Positions 3,900-16,033 of a DNA stretch of 22,854 bases are shown here, in pieces. A program made the position numbers and the translations under genes. Location of the stretch: positions 1 through 22,854 of the IMG/VR virus record IMGVR_UViG_3300037468_000232; one strand, written 5' to 3'. Each line of letters begins with the position of its first letter. The stretch's first letter is position 1. The notes under the pieces were generated by a model that was given only the letters and a program-made list of their open reading frames with translations, was not told the origin of the DNA and did not search any database. This stretch comes from a virus.

Positions 3900-4079
3900 T
3901 TAGGCCGTCGCCATGCGGCTGGGCCCTTGGCGGTCCATGTCCTTGATCACCAGTCCGCGGAGGTATGCAGCGCGGGATTGGCCGAGGTATCGAGCCTGCG
4001 TGTCGAGGTGCTCGACCAGATCGGTCCTGAGTTCAAGGGTGATCGCGGTTTGACCTTCCTTGGCTGGCCAGCTGGGCAT
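3900..4079 (-). CDS. Ribbon-helix-helix (CopG/Arc-like) DNA-binding protein
   Basis: A 59-residue protein. The stretch TAITLELRTDLVEHLDTQA is a typical RHH beta strand plus first helix, and SRAAYLRGLVIKDM is the second helix. Such proteins dimerise and insert the paired strand into DNA, usually as repressors. I chose the ATG at 4079 rather than the one at 4130: the -10-like TATACT (4108-4103) and the conserved promoter block lie between them, so the longer form would start inside its own promoter. The gene sits directly before the primase-helicase and directly beside the divergent control region, fitting an autoregulator of that region. It might instead bind the origin repeats. The target is not visible from sequence. 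Confidence 0.75.
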   Translation of the reverse strand: MPSWPAKEGQTAITLELRTDLVEHLDTQARYLGQSRAAYLRGLVIKDMDRQGPSRMATA

Positions 4080-4101
4080 GGATCTCGTGGGTGTGAATCC
4101 G

Positions 4102-4141
4102 CAGTATAGGGGGTGCGGATGTGAAACCAAAGGGGTAGGAT
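4102..4141. promoter_or_regulatory. Divergent promoter/operator element, copy 1
   Basis: Leftward: TTTGGT (4131-4126), 17 bp, TATACT (4108-4103), with the RHH start codon 23 nt beyond the -10 box. Rightward: TAGGAT (4136-4141), with GTGCGG 17 bp upstream as a poor -35, about 30 nt before the helicase start at 4172. The block TATAGGGGGTGCGGATG and the following AACCAAA recur almost unchanged in the control region 13501-13538. The leader also contains GTCACCGCC, related to leaders of the other sites. Confidence 0.6.
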
Positions 4142-4171
4142 GGCGAAAGTCACCGCCACAGGCCCTGATCC

Positions 4172-5806
4172 ATGGCCATGCTTGCTACATCAACAGAGCG
4201 CACGTCCCTTTGGCGCGCGATAGAGGATGCGGGCTTTAACGCCGCCGGCACTCCACGCGATGCCATCGCAGCCGAAATTCTGGCGCTGAGGGATTGGCTG
4301 GACGAGGTGTTTGCTGATCAGATTCCCGCGCAGCTTTACAACCTGCTGACAGCCGAATCATTGGATGCCAAAAAAGCGGCACCAGTGGCAACGGTCAAGC
4401 CGGCGGCATTGCAGCTGACCGCAGACCAACAGGTAGCGATTGAAGGAATTCTTGAGGACATTACAAAGCCTGGCATTGAGGGCATCACAAGGCCTGGCGC
4501 AACTCCGGTGCTTTGCGGCTATGCCGGGACTGGCAAGACGGTTACTACGGCGGCTCTAGTTTCGCGACTAGCAGACATGGGTGAGCGTGTTGTCGTTGCT
4601 ACTCCCACGCATAAGGCCCGATCGCAGGTCGAGCGCGCTTTGGACAGCTGTGGCGCTCACGGTTTTGAGGTTGTTACCGTGGCTCGACTGCTGGGCTTGA
4701 AGCAGGTCCGCGATCGCGACACTGGCAAGGAGACGTTCCAACCGGATCCAGGCGGCAAGAACATGCTCAACAAGGAAGAGGAATGGAACGATAATGAAAA
4801 GGAAATGGTGGAATTCCGCCGCATTGACGTTGTTATTGTCGATGAGACATCAATGCTTAACAGCGAGCTTTACGATCTGCTGCTGCGCGAGATTCAGGGA
4901 CGCCCTGTAGTTTTTGTTGGCGATGACCGACAGCTGCTGCCTGTAGGCGAAGACCAGGTCTGCAGAGCGTTTACCGAAGGTAGCTCGCTTTATCGCCTAA
5001 CCGAAGTACTGCGGCACGACGGCGCAATCCTGAACCTGGCCACTGCCACCAGGCAGATGCCAGTTGGAAGGGCCCGATTCGCAACAGCCGAGGGCGGTGG
5101 GTCTTGCGTTGTGGCCTACCGCAGCCGAGAGCAGTGGGGTACTGCTCTTTTAGACATGGCGGCATCACCGGAAGCGATGAGCAGCCCCGATTATTGCCGG
5201 GCTTTGGCGTACACCAACAAGGCGGTGGACGAAATGAATTTACGGATTCATCAGCGCAGGTATGGGTTTAACGCTCCGCAGTTTGTAGAGGGCATGACTT
5301 GCGTGACTGTCGACGCTATTCCTGATCCGATAAGCAACGGACTTTTATTGAACAGCACGGTCGACGTGCTGATCGAGGAAGCCAAGCGCGGCCCGCATCG
5401 GTTCACTGATGCAGGCGATCTGCTGACAGATGAGCCGTGGGACACATGGGAGCTGACCGTCACTGGTGATTTTTATATGGCAAAGACGTTTCGAGTTATT
5501 GCCAAAGAGCAAGAAGACCGCTGGCAAAAATCATTAAAAGAAATTGCAAATCAAGCCAGAGATCTTGGTGGCAAGGAGCGAAAGCTAAAGTGGGATCTAT
5601 TTTTTCGACGCCAAGATTGCGTTGGAAAGTTGCAGCCTGCAAGTGCGTTGACGGTCCACAAGTCGCAGGGGAGCACCTTCCAGCATGTGTTCCTGCATTG
5701 GAGCATCGACGGATGGGGGTCGGCGCCGACTGCGCAGCAGAACCAGCTGTCCTACGTCGGCATCACCAGGGCCGCAGAAAGCCTGCACGTTGTTGGGGAC
5801 CGATGA
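4172..5806 (+). CDS. SF1 DNA helicase, Dda/RecD2-like
   Basis: A 544-residue ATP-dependent helicase, related by motif to T4 Dda and RecD, which move 5'-to-3' and clear proteins or unwind at forks and recombination intermediates. Visible motifs: Walker A GYAGTGKT (116-123), TPTHKAR motif Ia (144-150), DETSM motif II (224-228), GDDRQLLPVGE motif III (250-260), and C-terminal VHKSQGSTF (from 495) and YVGITRA (from 528), typical of UvrD_C_2. It is about 100 residues longer than T4 Dda, mostly at the N-terminus (1-80) and in an insertion near 185-215. It is first in the rightward block and overlaps the SF2 helicase as ATGA. No Shine-Dalgarno precedes the ATG. An alternative start at the second Met (residue 3) would change little. 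Confidence 0.9.
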   Translation: MAMLATSTERTSLWRAIEDAGFNAAGTPRDAIAAEILALRDWLDEVFADQIPAQLYNLLTAESLDAKKAAPVATVKPAALQLTADQQVAIEGILEDITKPGIEGITRPGATPVLCGYAGTGKTVTTAALVSRLADMGERVVVATPTHKARSQVERALDSCGAHGFEVVTVARLLGLKQVRDRDTGKETFQPDPGGKNMLNKEEEWNDNEKEMVEFRRIDVVIVDETSMLNSELYDLLLREIQGRPVVFVGDDRQLLPVGEDQVCRAFTEGSSLYRLTEVLRHDGAILNLATATRQMPVGRARFATAEGGGSCVVAYRSREQWGTALLDMAASPEAMSSPDYCRALAYTNKAVDEMNLRIHQRRYGFNAPQFVEGMTCVTVDAIPDPISNGLLLNSTVDVLIEEAKRGPHRFTDAGDLLTDEPWDTWELTVTGDFYMAKTFRVIAKEQEDRWQKSLKEIANQARDLGGKERKLKWDLFFRRQDCVGKLQPASALTVHKSQGSTFQHVFLHWSIDGWGSAPTAQQNQLSYVGITRAAESLHVVGDR

Positions 5807-8230: not shown

Positions 8231-8262
8231 GGGAATGGGTTGCAAAGGGGAACTAATCCCCT
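8223..8262. promoter_or_regulatory. Nested G/C-run palindromes, candidate operator
   Basis: TTCCC-TAG-GGGAA (8223-8235) is a perfect palindrome over the nuclease stop codon. AGGGG (8246-8250) and CCCCT (8258-8262) form a second, with a 7-bp gap, filling the spacer between the -35 and -10 boxes. GGGGAA occurs in both. The arrangement suits a repressor or activator site at the RecT-like promoter. Confidence 0.45.
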
Positions 8263-8267
8263 ATAGT
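8240..8267 (+). promoter_or_regulatory. Promoter of the RecT-like/SSB group
   Basis: TTGCAA (8240-8245), a 16-bp spacer and TATAGT (8262-8267) make a good sigma-70 type promoter. The start codon is 23 nt beyond the -10 box. The core CCCCTATAGT is identical to that at 13529-13538, and CAAAGGGG recurs in the 4102-4141 element. Confidence 0.65.
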
Positions 8268-8290: not shown

Positions 8291-9124
8291 ATGGCGATTC
8301 AAAACAGCTCAGCGCTCACTGCGCCGGGCTCCAGTTCATTAAGCCTGCAGGTCAGCTCCGTTGACGATCTGGCGCGCCTTGCTCGGGTGTTTGCTGCGTC
8401 TGGATTGTTCGGCAAGAGCGGCAGCCAGGAAACCCAGGTGGCCGAGTGCGCAATACGCCTGATGGCGGGGATGGAGGCAGGTTTCAGCCCGTTCGCCAGT
8501 GCCACTGGGGTCCACATAATCAACGGCCGCCCGGCATTCAGCGCCAACCTGCTGGCCCAGGCCGTGCGCCGCCACCCTGACTACGACTACCGGGTGTTGG
8601 AGAAAACCGCGCAGCTCTGCCGGATTCGGTTCCTGTCCCGCGGTGAAACGCTCGGCGATGAGCTGTTCACCATCGAGATGGCCGAACGGGCCGGCCTGCT
8701 CAAGAACCCCACCTGGCGTTCGTATCCCGAGGCCATGCTGTTTTCCCGTGCGCTCACCGCCGGGATGCGTACCCACTGCCCCGATGCTCTTGGTGGCCAT
8801 CCGGCCTACACACCCGAAGAGCTGGGCGGTGATGACGTGGTGCCAGTCACGGTGACGGAGCCGGCACCACCAGCACTGGTGCCAGACGCTGAGCTGCTGG
8901 CCAAGGCCTACGCAGCTTGCGGTGACGCTGGCCTCTCTGACGATGGCCTAATCGCCCTCATCGATGAGCTCAGCCAAGGCGCTGCCCAGACGCTGGATCA
9001 GCTGCCGGTGCTCACACTGCAAAGGCTGGCCAAGGTCGGCGTATCTGCCGAGACGGTGGTCCGCTGCAACGGCGACACCACCACCGAAGACCCCGACGAT
9101 CTCCCTGCTGCCTGGTCTGCCTGA
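8291..9124 (+). CDS. RecT-like single-strand annealing recombinase (probable)
   Basis: A 277-residue protein. The pattern AIRLMAGMEAGFSPFASATGVHIINGRPAFSA, split here as a Met/Gly helix, a small-residue loop and a G-R-P-A-F-S-A turn, then WRSYPEAMLFSRALTAGMR and a YTPEEL end, belongs to a phage family commonly annotated as RecT-like recombination proteins. These bind single strands and anneal homologous DNA. The C-terminal 90 residues are acidic helices, perhaps a partner-binding tail. SSB is the next gene, 37 bp downstream, and a nuclease precedes it, as in other phage annealing modules. The start at 8291 is 23 nt after the -10 box, with a C-rich leader and no Shine-Dalgarno. The RecT link is from family pattern and context, not from a proven fold. 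Confidence 0.6.
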   Translation: MAIQNSSALTAPGSSSLSLQVSSVDDLARLARVFAASGLFGKSGSQETQVAECAIRLMAGMEAGFSPFASATGVHIINGRPAFSANLLAQAVRRHPDYDYRVLEKTAQLCRIRFLSRGETLGDELFTIEMAERAGLLKNPTWRSYPEAMLFSRALTAGMRTHCPDALGGHPAYTPEELGGDDVVPVTVTEPAPPALVPDAELLAKAYAACGDAGLSDDGLIALIDELSQGAAQTLDQLPVLTLQRLAKVGVSAETVVRCNGDTTTEDPDDLPAAWSA

Positions 9125-11458: not shown

Positions 11459-11647
11459 ATGTCTATCACTTGCCTCGCCGCCTGGGTGGCGGCATTGATT
11501 CTGTTGCCGATCGTCGTTTTGCTCTGGGCCACTGAGAGCCGCCAGCAACGTGCCCGCCGGTGGCGCCAGGCTGGGCTCACCCAGCAGCGGATTGCCGATC
11601 GCCTTGGGTGCTCACGCAGCACGGTGCGGAGGTTGCTGGTGGGGTGA
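11459..11647 (+). CDS. Membrane-anchored helix-turn-helix mini-protein, 62 aa
   Basis: A 62-residue protein made of two parts: a hydrophobic segment (about 4-23, TCLAAWVAALILLPIVVLLW) and, after an Arg-rich turn (SRQQRARRW), a helix-turn-helix LTQQRIADRLGCSRSTVRRL of the resolvase/sigma-region-4 type. It would place a DNA-binding domain at the inner face of the cytoplasmic membrane. The 73 bp before it hold no clear promoter or Shine-Dalgarno site. Its last 71 bp overlap the 3' end of the opposite-strand gene 11577-12068. The HTH reading is convincing; whether it binds DNA at the membrane is inference. Confidence 0.65.
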   Translation: MSITCLAAWVAALILLPIVVLLWATESRQQRARRWRQAGLTQQRIADRLGCSRSTVRRLLVG

Positions 11648-12607: not shown

Positions 12608-12937
12608 TCAGGCGCGGGCATCGGGGCAGGTGCTGGCGGTTTCGATTGATGCGGCGATGGCACGCGACTGGCGGGCCAGGTCCGTCATCAGCTCGCGGTC
12701 CAGCGGTAGGGATTCATCCCAGGCGTTATCAGCAACGGCCCGGGCGACCTGCTGCGTGGCATCGAGCAGCCCCACCAGCAGCGGCAGGATTGGGTTGTTG
12801 CGGCGGCCGGAGTCGGGCAGCGTGATCAGCCGATCAACGTGGCCGGGGATGGCCTGCCGCGCTGCTTGGAGGATCAGATCAGACAGCGCGCCATCGCACT
12901 CAAGGCGGGTTTGGTTGTGAATCAGCATCTCCATCAT
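12608..12937 (-). CDS. Hypothetical helical protein, 109 aa
   Basis: A 109-residue, mostly helical protein starting MMEMLIHNQTRLECDGALSD. The second in-frame ATG (12934) is equally possible, but the first overlaps the Gp157 stop as ATGA. A Gly/Asn-rich loop (DSGRRNNPILPLL) joins two helical halves. It lies second in the leftward operon that begins with Gp157. No known family is recognised; the spacing to both neighbours (overlap and 3 bp) shows it is translated as part of the group. Confidence 0.55.
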   Translation of the reverse strand: MMEMLIHNQTRLECDGALSDLILQAARQAIPGHVDRLITLPDSGRRNNPILPLLVGLLDATQQVARAVADNAWDESLPLDRELMTDLARQSRAIAASIETASTCPDARA

Positions 12938-13476
12938 TTAATGCTCCAGCTCCGGCGTTCAACCAATGCAGCGCCTTCAATCTGCGCACCACCCTTGAGT
13001 GCAGCGGCCAAGGCGGTCTTGTCGGCGGTGATGGTGGTCTTCACTCGCTGGAACTGCTCGGGGAGATTCCACGCCGAACACTCCACATCAACAGCGGTTG
13101 ACTTCCTGCTGGTGATCTTGTGCTCGGGCAGCTCCCAGCTCGTTTCATCAGGTGCCACCTTTTGGAGCGCTGCAATCAGCCGCTCCTGCAAGGCGTCGGC
13201 CTGCTGCTCAGCACTGGTGGCCAGATCTTTGAGCCGCTGAGCGTGAGCGGCGCGGGCTTCGGCTTGGGCCCGCATGTGATCGATCACCCAGCACCAGGCA
13301 TCGGCTTTGGCGTCGAGGGCCCGGCGGTTGCCTGACTCGAAAGCGATCAGTGCCTCCAGCTCGGCGGTGGCGGCGGCAGCTTCGGCTGGGTCATCACTGA
13401 ACAGCAGCTCAGCTGATTCGTTGATCTGTCGTTGAAGGTGCAGGGCTTCGCCAGTCAGGTCGAAGAGGGTGGCCAT
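12934..13476 (-). CDS. Siphovirus Gp157-like protein
   Basis: A 180-residue protein with the layout of the siphovirus Gp157 family: MATLFDLTGEALHLQRQINE start, an acidic helix, a long coiled coil (RAQAEARAAHAQRLKDLATS and onward to about residue 105), then a strand-rich end with KITSRKSTAVDVE and a closing FQRVKTTITADKTALAAALK segment. The family is known from S. thermophilus phages, where it was linked to phage resistance, and is often found beside RecT/SSB-type genes. It is first in the leftward block. Its start is 24 nt beyond the TAGGGT box (13506-13501), with no Shine-Dalgarno in the leader. A role in DNA recombination support is inferred from context. Confidence 0.75.
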   Translation of the reverse strand: MATLFDLTGEALHLQRQINESAELLFSDDPAEAAAATAELEALIAFESGNRRALDAKADAWCWVIDHMRAQAEARAAHAQRLKDLATSAEQQADALQERLIAALQKVAPDETSWELPEHKITSRKSTAVDVECSAWNLPEQFQRVKTTITADKTALAAALKGGAQIEGAALVERRSWSIK

Positions 13477-13500
13477 GGGCCGCTTGCGGTGAACTCGCCA

Positions 13501-13538
13501 ACCCTAGCGTTTTGGTTCCGCATCTGCACCCCTATAGT
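13501..13538. promoter_or_regulatory. Divergent promoter/operator element, copy 2
   Basis: Rightward: TTTGGT (13511-13516), 16 bp, TATAGT (13533-13538), with the sigma GTG 26 nt beyond the -10 box. Leftward: TAGGGT (13506-13501) with GTGCAG 17-18 bp upstream, and the Gp157 start 24 nt beyond. In the leftward reading the block TATAGGGGTGCAGATG, a short variable gap and AACCAAA match the element at 4102-4141 nearly base for base. Confidence 0.6.
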
Positions 13539-13564
13539 GGGCCAATCTTCACGATCTGAATCCC

Positions 13565-14515
13565 GTGGCCGCAAGCTGGTGGCTCGACACGATCGGCCGA
13601 ATACCGCTGCTGACCCCAGCTGAGGAGATCGAGCTCGGCACGGTCATCCAGCGATGGCAGCAGCACCCTGAGCCGTGCCCGCCAGGTATCAGGCGCCGCG
13701 GGATGCGGGCCCGTGATCGGTTTGTGCAGGCGAATCTGCGGCTGGCGGTTTCGTATGTGTCCAAGCGCTGCTTTCGGTTGGCCAAGGCGCACGGCCAGGA
13801 AGACCTGATCCAGGCCGCCAACATGGGCCTCATCACTGCTGCTGAGCGCTTTGATCCAGCCCGCGGGTATAGGTTCAGCACCTATGCCTACTGGTGGATC
13901 CGCCAGGCCGTCAGCCGCTGGGCTGATCAGCATTCCCGCCTGATCTCAATTCCCGGCAGCCACTGCCAGCACCTCGGCCGCATCGGGCCGATCACCCGCC
14001 GCCTCGAGCAGGAGCTGAACCGCACGCCCACCCGCGAAGAGATCGCCACTGAGCTGGGCGTATCGATGCAGGTGCTGGAGCAGGTGCTTGAGAACGGCCG
14101 TTCAATCAGCAGCCTTGATCAGATCATCACCGACGACGGCCTAGAGCTGGGCAGCACCTGCGCATCGTTCGACCGGAGCATTGAGGATGAGGAAGAACAG
14201 CGCGAGCGGTGGCGCCAGGCGGAGCTCCTTAGGAACATGATCGCTCGGCTGCCGGTGTCAGACCAGCGGCTGCTGGTGTTGGCCTGGGGCCTTGATGGCG
14301 TCGAGGTGCCCCGCGCTGAGCTGGCACGGCAGGAAGGCCTGAGCACCCGGGCGCTGGAGTCACGCCTAGAGCGCCTGCAGTCGTCCCTAGCAGCGCACTC
14401 CGTTCAGCTCGTTCTGTTGGCGGTCTGCAGAGTGCGGCCATCGCCACGGCCCAAGCAGAGGCGGCTCAGGCGTGAGGCGTATGGGTTGCAGTTAGCGCTG
14501 GTGGTGACCCCATAA
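13565..14515 (+). CDS. RNA polymerase sigma-70 family factor (phage-encoded)
   Basis: A 316-residue sigma factor. Region 1.2 is the DTIGRIPLLTPAEEIELG segment; region 2 runs from FVQANLRLAVSYVSKRCF through EDLIQAANMGLITAAERFDP and YRFSTYAYWWIRQAVSRWA; region 3 is NRTPTREEIATELGVSMQVLEQ; region 4 begins LPVSDQRLLVLAWGLDG. Regions 1.2-3 are close to cyanobacterial RpoD/group 2 factors, so core and -10 binding should be intact. Region 4.2 (VPRAELARQEGLSTRALESR) departs from the usual DxxREIGxxxGVTRERVRQ form, so -35 reading is probably altered. The start is a GTG 26 nt after the TATAGT box. It probably redirects host polymerase to phage promoters. A basic tail (RPSPRPKQRRLRR) extends beyond region 4. 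Confidence 0.9.
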   Translation: MAASWWLDTIGRIPLLTPAEEIELGTVIQRWQQHPEPCPPGIRRRGMRARDRFVQANLRLAVSYVSKRCFRLAKAHGQEDLIQAANMGLITAAERFDPARGYRFSTYAYWWIRQAVSRWADQHSRLISIPGSHCQHLGRIGPITRRLEQELNRTPTREEIATELGVSMQVLEQVLENGRSISSLDQIITDDGLELGSTCASFDRSIEDEEEQRERWRQAELLRNMIARLPVSDQRLLVLAWGLDGVEVPRAELARQEGLSTRALESRLERLQSSLAAHSVQLVLLAVCRVRPSPRPKQRRLRREAYGLQLALVVTP

Positions 14516-14825: not shown

Positions 14826-14969
14826 ATGATTGAAGTTGTCACGGTCAACGGTGAACCGATCTGGCAGGTGTGCGGCAGTGGCATCTGCACGCGCCACAGG
14901 GCTGGGTATAGGGCGCTGGAAATGTTCTGGGCTCAGTGCAGCAGCCAAGGCCTACAGGCGCCTCAGTAA
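14826..14969 (+). CDS. Small hypothetical protein, 47 aa
   Basis: A 47-residue protein, MIEVVTVNGEPIWQVCGSGI and then CTRHRAGYRALEMFWAQCSS. The Cys/His set (C16, C21, H23) and aromatic residues suggest a compact, perhaps metal-binding mini-domain; I recall similar proteins in cyanobacterial phages. In-frame ATGs at 14787 and 14805 would add 13 or 7 residues. The first of them overlaps the start codon of the minus-strand gene in one CATG, which makes it less attractive. It ends 7 bp inside the convergent endolysin gene. No Shine-Dalgarno is visible. Confidence 0.5.
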   Translation: MIEVVTVNGEPIWQVCGSGICTRHRAGYRALEMFWAQCSSQGLQAPQ

Positions 14970-16033
14970 TTCCACCGCACGCGAGGACGAGGACTGCCAG
15001 CGCGAATGCCTAGATGAACAAAGCCTTTAGGAGCGCCGTAGCCAAGCGAGAAAGGCCAGTTGAGATCGCACCAGTCCTGCACCAATTTGACCGGGACGTT
15101 TTTGATGTACCAATCGATGGCGCCGCATCCTGGCTTGTAGAGATGCTCGCTGTCTGCAGCACCATTGACCGAATCGTTCACTGCTTTTGGCCGATGAGCG
15201 CTCGTGATGATGACTGGCTGGTTACCGAACTCTGCTCTGGCTTTTTCGATGAACGCGCAGAGTTCAGTGGCGATGTCGCACTGTCCCTGGTTCACAAACC
15301 TGCGCCTTTGTTCCCCAAGGCATAGCTCGCCGTAGGAGATGTGCGGCGTCACCAGGGTGCTCAGCGGTGACGATGGCGTGAACCGTGGCGGCGGCGGCGG
15401 CGGAATGGCAGCACCAACGAACAGCGCCACCTCGGCAGCACGGCGACGGGTCAGGCCGGCAAGCGGCGCCCCGTTGACCTTGTCCCACTTGGGGAGCTCC
15501 TGCGGGATTACTACCTGCGCTGATTCACCAGCATTGATGCGGCGTCTGAGCGTGGAATCCTTCACGGCACCTAGGCCCACGTTGTAGGCCCAGCTGATCA
15601 GCGCTGCCTGCTGGTTGCCGCCCCATTTGGCGCTAGCCGGGATGTTCTCATGCAGCTGCTTAGCAATGCGCAGAATCTCAGCGCGCAGCAGTTCATCGGC
15701 CAAGGCCTGGCTGATTGTGTCGCCCTCGCGTACGGGTGCGCCGTTGACGATGGTGGTTCCCCATCCAATCGTCCAGATACCTGCCGGGCATTTGTAGGCC
15801 GCCAGCTTGCAGCCTTCAAAGGCTTTGATGATCTTCTGCGCTGGTGCCAGATAGATCGGATCAGGCTGCTGAGCCGCCGGGCTGCCTTCCGCTCGCCATA
15901 GCTCGGTAAACGCCTGCTTCTGCGCAGCGGTCAGGCCTTCGTCCAGTCCTGAGAGTGCCGCCAACTGTTGCGGCGTGATCGTGCCAGCGCGGGCGATGTG
16001 CTCAGCGGCAGAGCGAACGGTCGCGTAGGTCAT
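14963..16033 (-). CDS. Two-domain endolysin: GH24 lysozyme plus M15 peptidase
   Basis: A 356-residue peptidoglycan-degrading enzyme that should lyse the host. An N-terminal helical part (1-55) precedes a T4/P21-type GH24 lysozyme domain (about 60-210), whose triad follows the E-8-C-5-T pattern in FEGCKLAAYKCPAGIWTIGW, with Cys where T4 has Asp. A proline hinge (PPPPPPRF) leads to a Peptidase_M15_3 domain: ITSAHRPKAVNDSVNG, then the zinc ligands in DSEH, AID and FVHLGIR. The lysozyme cuts the glycan strand and the peptidase cuts the stem peptide. No signal peptide is present, so it needs a holin. It is last in the leftward tail/lysis run, and its ATG overlaps the previous stop as ATGA. Confidence 0.9.
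   Translation of the reverse strand: MTYATVRSAAEHIARAGTITPQQLAALSGLDEGLTAAQKQAFTELWRAEGSPAAQQPDPIYLAPAQKIIKAFEGCKLAAYKCPAGIWTIGWGTTIVNGAPVREGDTISQALADELLRAEILRIAKQLHENIPASAKWGGNQQAALISWAYNVGLGAVKDSTLRRRINAGESAQVVIPQELPKWDKVNGAPLAGLTRRRAAEVALFVGAAIPPPPPPRFTPSSPLSTLVTPHISYGELCLGEQRRRFVNQGQCDIATELCAFIEKARAEFGNQPVIITSAHRPKAVNDSVNGAADSEHLYKPGCGAIDWYIKNVPVKLVQDWCDLNWPFSLGYGAPKGFVHLGIRAGSPRPRVRWNY

Follow-up and report, generated by a model that had tools for sequence, protein, structure and literature searches.

Two divergent intergenic regions and the element they share

The window, a 22,854-nucleotide stretch of DNA from a freshwater Synechococcus virus, contains two intergenic regions, at positions 4080–4171 and 13477–13564, each lying between diverging genes. 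At the first, an ORF for a 59-residue protein of the ribbon-helix-helix (RHH) type, our proposed regulator (3900–4079, minus strand), diverges from copy A of an operator-like element, and the first gene to the right of copy A encodes a Dda/RecD-like SF1 helicase (4172–5806, plus strand; PHROG 325, Pfam AAA_30/UvrD_C_2). Copy A (GGTGCGGATGTGAAACCAAAGGGG; 4112–4135, plus strand), recognized by alignment and by a profile, is flanked by a leftward –10 box, TATACT, for the RHH gene (4103–4108, minus strand), read from the sequence, and a rightward box, TAGGAT, for the helicase operon (4136–4141, plus strand), also covered by the profile. At the second region, copy B (GGTGCAGATGCGGAACCAAAACGC; 13507–13530, minus strand), recognized in the same two ways, lies between a TAGGGT box for the Gp157 operon (13501–13506, minus strand) and a TATAGT box for the sigma gene (13533–13538, plus strand), both read from the sequence. 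The flanking genes encode a Gp157-family protein (12934–13476, minus strand; Pfam PF05565, 1.5e-22) and a phage sigma factor of cyanobacterial RpoD-like type (13565–14515, plus strand; Pfam Sigma70 r1.2/r2/r3). A third, weaker element (GGTTGCAAAGGGGAACTAATCCCC) with a TATAGT –10 box is found by the profile with 18.1 bits at 8238–8267 on the plus strand, before a gene for a RecT-like annealing protein (8291–9124, plus strand; PHROG 561, E 1e-48).

The initial annotation held that the two regions can be aligned in inverted orientation, and our analysis bears this out. The local alignment of 4080–4171 with the reverse complement of 13477–13564 scores 30 over ~65 bp, far above 5000 pairs of dinucleotide shuffles (8.6 ± 1.6, maximum 19), and all the short words quoted in the annotation are found where it places them. 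When the whole query is searched against the window, the next best match after the A/B pair scores 17 and lies in coding sequence. The alignment (TATAGGGGGTGCGGATGTGAAACCAAAGGGGTAGGATGGCGAAAGTCACCGC for copy A, plus strand; TATAGGGGTGCAGATGCGGAACCAAAACGCTAGGGTTGGCGAGTTCACCGC for copy B, minus strand) extends over the leftward –10, the element, the rightward –10 and a short leader, TGGCGA..TCACCGC, that is common to both copies outside the element. The same two intergenic regions of Synechococcus phage S-LBS1 (MG271909), the closest isolate, also align to each other (score 28; shuffles with mean 8.5 and maximum 22), and the likeness of A and B is therefore seen in a second phage.

The repeated unit is an element of ~24 bp directly upstream of a –10 hexamer of the form TANNNT. 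Sequences upstream of the sigma gene in ~35 relatives, all viral contigs, give the consensus GGTGCRGAnnCGGAACCnnnnCGGTAnGnT. Most real sites score 18–46 bits with a profile built on positions –24 to +7 relative to the –10, against at most 12 bits in random sequence totalling 0.9 Mb; in the window the profile matches A, B, B read from its opposite face and the weaker site before recT. Outward promoter-like boxes had also been described for both regions. They stand as –10 hexamers on both sides of both copies, but a sigma-70 scan of the two regions finds no complete –35/–10 pair (a TTGACA-like –35 located 16–18 bp before the –10). The second outward –10 is present at 24 of 29 sites at divergent loci vs 1 of 17 one-way sites (Fisher p = 3e-7), and this dependence on gene orientation supports reading the boxes as promoters. 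Of the 16 RHH sites, 14 have the far-side –10, as does every one of the 10 Gp157/sigma sites with the element next to sigma; the three Gp157 sites with sigma non-adjacent or not found lack it. The spacing from element to rightward –10 is fixed at 24–25 nt at nearly all sites, and the distance to the leftward –10 varies by 0–3 bp.

The element contains an imperfect dyad of ~22 bp with its axis 13.5 bp before the –10, so that it fills the –35/spacer region. Symmetry averages 5.0 of 11 pairs vs 2.8 ± 1.4 in shuffled sequence and reaches 9 of 11 in the relatives L009 and L010. A hairpin reading of the covariation in the outer arm pairs (C:G to G:C around the spacer) was rejected, as the arms lie upstream of the start sites and the pairs are broken in some sites. 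Between the RHH start and the element, which begins 33 bp away, lies the leftward –10. A dyad that looks like an operator thus appears to lie at the RHH gene's own promoter, as in RHH autoregulators with an adjacent operator. That these sites form one element family with divergent promoters is a conclusion we hold with high confidence.

Distribution and types of the element in related phages

The initial annotation took the arrangement for a duplicated switch present in two copies. Its central idea, one control element used at more than one place, survives and is extended by the scan of related cyanophage genomes; the two-copy form does not, since relatives carry 3–5 copies, many of them one-way, and the window has its weaker third copy. 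Because the profile finds several further places per relative, the element is better described as dispersed than as a two-copy duplication. The copies lie before the RHH gene and helicase, recT, Gp157/sigma and a gene for a protein with a membrane segment and a helix-turn-helix (TM-HTH), and in more than 12 relatives it is found ahead of the same functional genes. A short RHH-type gene stands immediately to the left of the element in the relatives whose sequences cover this region, mostly divergent from the helicase gene. When the query for each genome is only the RHH-side 24-mer of that genome plus a following TANNNT, the next best sites precede recT, Gp157 (opposite sigma), the TM-HTH gene and a leader near the left end, in most genomes above a clear gap.

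A recent duplication or recombination copy with no common binding factor would account for the short leader that A and B share beyond the element. We regard this origin as highly improbable: many relatives have the element at 3–5 separate loci, the similarity being largely limited to the element and its –10, and changes of type are common to the sites of a phage. A search of 151 genomes from one picocyanobacterial family finds no CGGAACC-type element. With a pattern of this length, the absence shows no more than that the motif is not common among hosts. The CGGAACC profile has no match in the marine phage S-H1. Searches for extra copies of the different dyad of genome G002 gave no convincing further site, those for the dyad of G004 gave solely that dyad read in reverse together with a weak match, and a prophage search by RecT alignment against bacterial genomes found no relative. 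In L238 (5472–5499) an RHH-side element of the window's type (GGTGCGAATGTGAAACCAAAGGGGTAGGAT) precedes a different, SF2 helicase gene, and the element may be able to travel independently of the downstream gene.

Several types of the element occur across the phages: CGGAACC, CGGTATG, GCTGCG...CGCAGC, TGCATCCGCA, TTGCGCAA, TGCATCCGCATTGC and AGTTCCGGAACT. The type differs between phages and is mostly common to the sites of one phage. Different sites within one phage are identical at 18.6 of 24 positions vs 12.2 of 24 for same-gene sites in phages of different type (permutation p = 5e-5). As these sites had been found via the RHH-side element, the comparison was repeated on fixed upstream regions without pre-selection of sites, giving 16.7 for the phage's own operator vs 13.2 for other types (p = 5e-5). 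One motif type per genome, different between genomes, is the pattern of a multi-operator regulon; the exception is G016 (L118/L119, L235), a mosaic with an S-LBS1-like RHH protein and RHH-side element and CGGAACC-type elements elsewhere. Because the sites of one phage mostly share a type, a phage-encoded trans-acting factor with phage-specific recognition is, on the sequence evidence, very probable.

Some relatives show further features around the element. In 16 related cyanophages a non-coding leader of 150–190 nt, absent from the window, lies between the RHH-side element and the helicase/ResIII gene (L009 9815–10005, L010 8281–8447, L105 5786–5980, L112 4553–4745, L123 15787–15973, L097 5646–5819, and 10 more). 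In its alignment 92% of cells are paired and 16 of 36 pairs are changed on both sides, and all slid controls fall far below this; refolding with a closing stem gives a model in which 18 of 40 pairs are changed on both sides. No Rfam family matches at the gathering threshold. That this leader is a structured RNA is well supported, and it is a candidate for a new structured 5′ leader, perhaps riboswitch-like. A left-end copy of the element (L011 2582 and L097 2173, both minus strand, and equivalent places in G031 and G032) precedes a conserved leader (CCTGCCGGGTCGGTCCTACCCGCAAGGAT) without an evident ORF, possibly a second non-coding RNA. The layout of S-H1 (L234 4870–5100; about 14870–15100 of record MK105819) is similar to that of the RHH gene and element: an unannotated RHH-like ORF (MRLANPTPIRLTQAQLDWLDRRRVAGLSRSAVIRLLVEEAMK...) adjoins the primase gene and lies beside a large dyad, GCTTGC...GTAGCCGCAGCGGCTAC...GCAAGC, that encloses –10-like boxes.

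Candidate binding factors

The AlphaFold2 monomer model of the RHH protein (pLDDT 84) has helices at residues 19–32 and 36–50, and the N-terminal strand is unassigned in the monomer. The top Foldseek matches are CopG, Arc and ParD, with probabilities of 0.95–0.99 but E values of 0.12–0.25, and the best is CopG on 22-bp DNA (1ea4). A Pfam scan of the window protein gives no RHH match, and RHH_1 exceeds its cut-off only in the homologue L008. The modelled protein thus appears to have the β-α-α fold of 40–60 residues of the CopG/Arc/MetJ proteins.

Comparison of the window with S-LBS1, where the RHH gene is annotated as hypothetical A51, bears most directly on the choice of factor. The sigma factors are 95% identical with region 4 almost unchanged, and the Zn-ribbon HTH protein (91%, its HTH unchanged), HTH7191 (99%), Gp157 (91%) and RecT (88–91%) are also close. 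The RHH protein is 56% identical and is the only strongly diverged one among the DNA-binding candidates found in both phages. The RHH/helicase and sigma/Gp157 elements of S-LBS1 share a CGGTATG core and are identical to each other at 27 of 31 positions; its sigma-side element matches the window counterpart at 22 of 30. With sigma nearly constant, the RHH protein diverged and both elements changed together, the comparison favors RHH over sigma. The recT element is almost unchanged in S-LBS1, which makes the regulon membership of the window's third copy uncertain; this copy may lie outside the regulon or be weakly bound. A different gene stands beside RHH in S-LBS1, and its RHH/helicase block may have been exchanged as a whole unit.

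The initial annotation had named both the RHH protein and the phage sigma factor as candidate binders. The former was well chosen, and is the most diverged DNA-binding candidate in S-LBS1. The latter would make the element a sigma promoter, with GTGCRG as –35 and TANNNT as –10, a sigma regulon and positive autoregulation at copy B. The fixed 24–25-nt spacing to the rightward –10, the sigma gene at one copy and a correlation of sigma distance with element distance (r 0.55) agree with this, but a motif read by a phage sigma should stay constant when the sigma does, and in S-LBS1 both element cores differ although sigma is nearly unchanged. G003 moreover has the element set and no detectable homologue of this sigma, and the element is partly dyad-symmetric, unlike sigma sites. 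We consider the sigma promoter an unlikely explanation.

Slightly more doubtful is recognition by another DNA-binding protein of the phage, such as the TM-HTH or the Zn-ribbon HTH protein. The former, 62 residues long in the window (11459–11647, plus strand; GLTQQRIADRLGCSRSTVRRLLVG), has what looks like a hydrophobic membrane segment, with an HTH after it; a DNA-binding protein tethered to the membrane would be unusual. In many relatives its own gene has the element upstream, and TM-HTH distance is strongly correlated with that of the element (r 0.65), but the protein has no match in S-LBS1 (E<0.01), where elements are present. The Zn-ribbon HTH keeps its HTH unchanged there while the elements changed, and neither gene abuts the RHH-side element. 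For the whole RHH protein the correlation with element distance is weak (Mantel r 0.23, p 0.05), in a test confounded by shared descent and with a few RHH sequences wrongly called. Whole-gene Mantel tests place sigma and TM-HTH ahead of RHH and do not discriminate well enough to single out the regulator. The correlations count against the RHH protein, as do the predicted DNA-facing β-strand residues (C, T, E), which are identical in S-LBS1 and G015 despite differing elements, the G016 mosaic and the unchanged recT element. Taken with these, the RHH protein is moderately likely to be the trans-acting factor.

Proposed regulation and its relation to known systems

The reading that we prefer, with moderate confidence, is a CopG/Arc-like autoregulator with an early-gene regulon, in which A and B would be divergent operator-promoters of one regulon. 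In a –10-type promoter the dyad would occupy the –35/spacer region, flanked on its other side by a further outward –10 where genes diverge, and the 59-residue RHH protein encoded beside copy A would bind it. The protein would shut off its own gene and the helicase operon at copy A, and both the Gp157 operon and the sigma gene at copy B. Several early blocks, a sigma gene included, would then rise and fall together. The suggestion in the initial annotation that a shared element coordinates several transcription units is probably correct.

CopG and Arc act as repressors by sitting on the –35/spacer region, where the dyad here also lies, and this is the basis for reading the proposed circuit as repression. 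If the RHH protein is the factor, we take repression by analogy to be rather likely. It could instead bind and activate, making up for the missing –35. The lack of a consensus –35 and the rigid distance to the rightward –10 speak for this, a distance that would also suit a promoter-recognition element, and the archaeal virus RHH factor AvtR is able both to activate and to repress (PMC5569661). Activation nonetheless seems quite unlikely, with a dyad placed over the –35/spacer region, so that a bound dimer would stand in the way of polymerase, and a leftward –10 whose distance varies. The majority of known RHH regulators, moreover, are repressors.

Repression by the RHH protein would place the circuit beside several known systems. 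Like the autorepressor CopG of plasmid pMV158, with its 22-bp operator, it has a short RHH protein and a ~22-bp pseudo-dyad over the –35/spacer of that protein's own promoter; the plasmid has one operator, whereas here there are several per phage, some of them bidirectional. Arc of phage P22, whose structures are among the top Foldseek matches, is likewise an RHH repressor of a tailed phage, and its operator lies between –10 and –35. Arc acts at the immI locus, in contrast to the element here, which is dispersed before replication, recombination and sigma genes. The RHH factors SvtR and AvtR of archaeal viruses recognize imperfect inverted repeats both at their own promoter and at several further viral sites (PMC5569661), the arrangement proposed here from sequence; hosts, promoters and proteins differ, and sequence homology is not established. 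Phage-specific operator motifs that are spread across one genome and differ between relatives are known from the Rep/stoperator systems of cluster A mycobacteriophages (PMC6550527), which have an unrelated repressor, up to about 30 sites and experimentally proven immunity. By analogy, the circuit may be autoregulation of the CopG, Arc and SvtR/AvtR type spread over several promoters as in stoperator systems.

The literature searched, including searches for RHH proteins with cyanophages, contains no cyanophage description of such an element or circuit. S-LBS1 comes from Lake Bourget and carries an integrase; no induction was seen with mitomycin C, and the consulted passages of its description do not mention the element (PMC6157547). 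A bolder extension would make the RHH protein the master (immunity) repressor for a group of temperate freshwater Synechococcus siphoviruses, with element types as immunity groups and operators co-evolving genome-wide; we put this forward tentatively and at low probability. Some picocyanobacterial siphoviruses have integrases, and no repressor or transcription programme is described for them in the literature searched. For this group of phages the element points at once to a set of regulated operons and to a small protein as candidate regulator, and an isolate and its host, S-LBS1 and Synechococcus TCC793, exist for testing. The element types form a natural series for studying how the specificity of an operator set and of its regulator change jointly.
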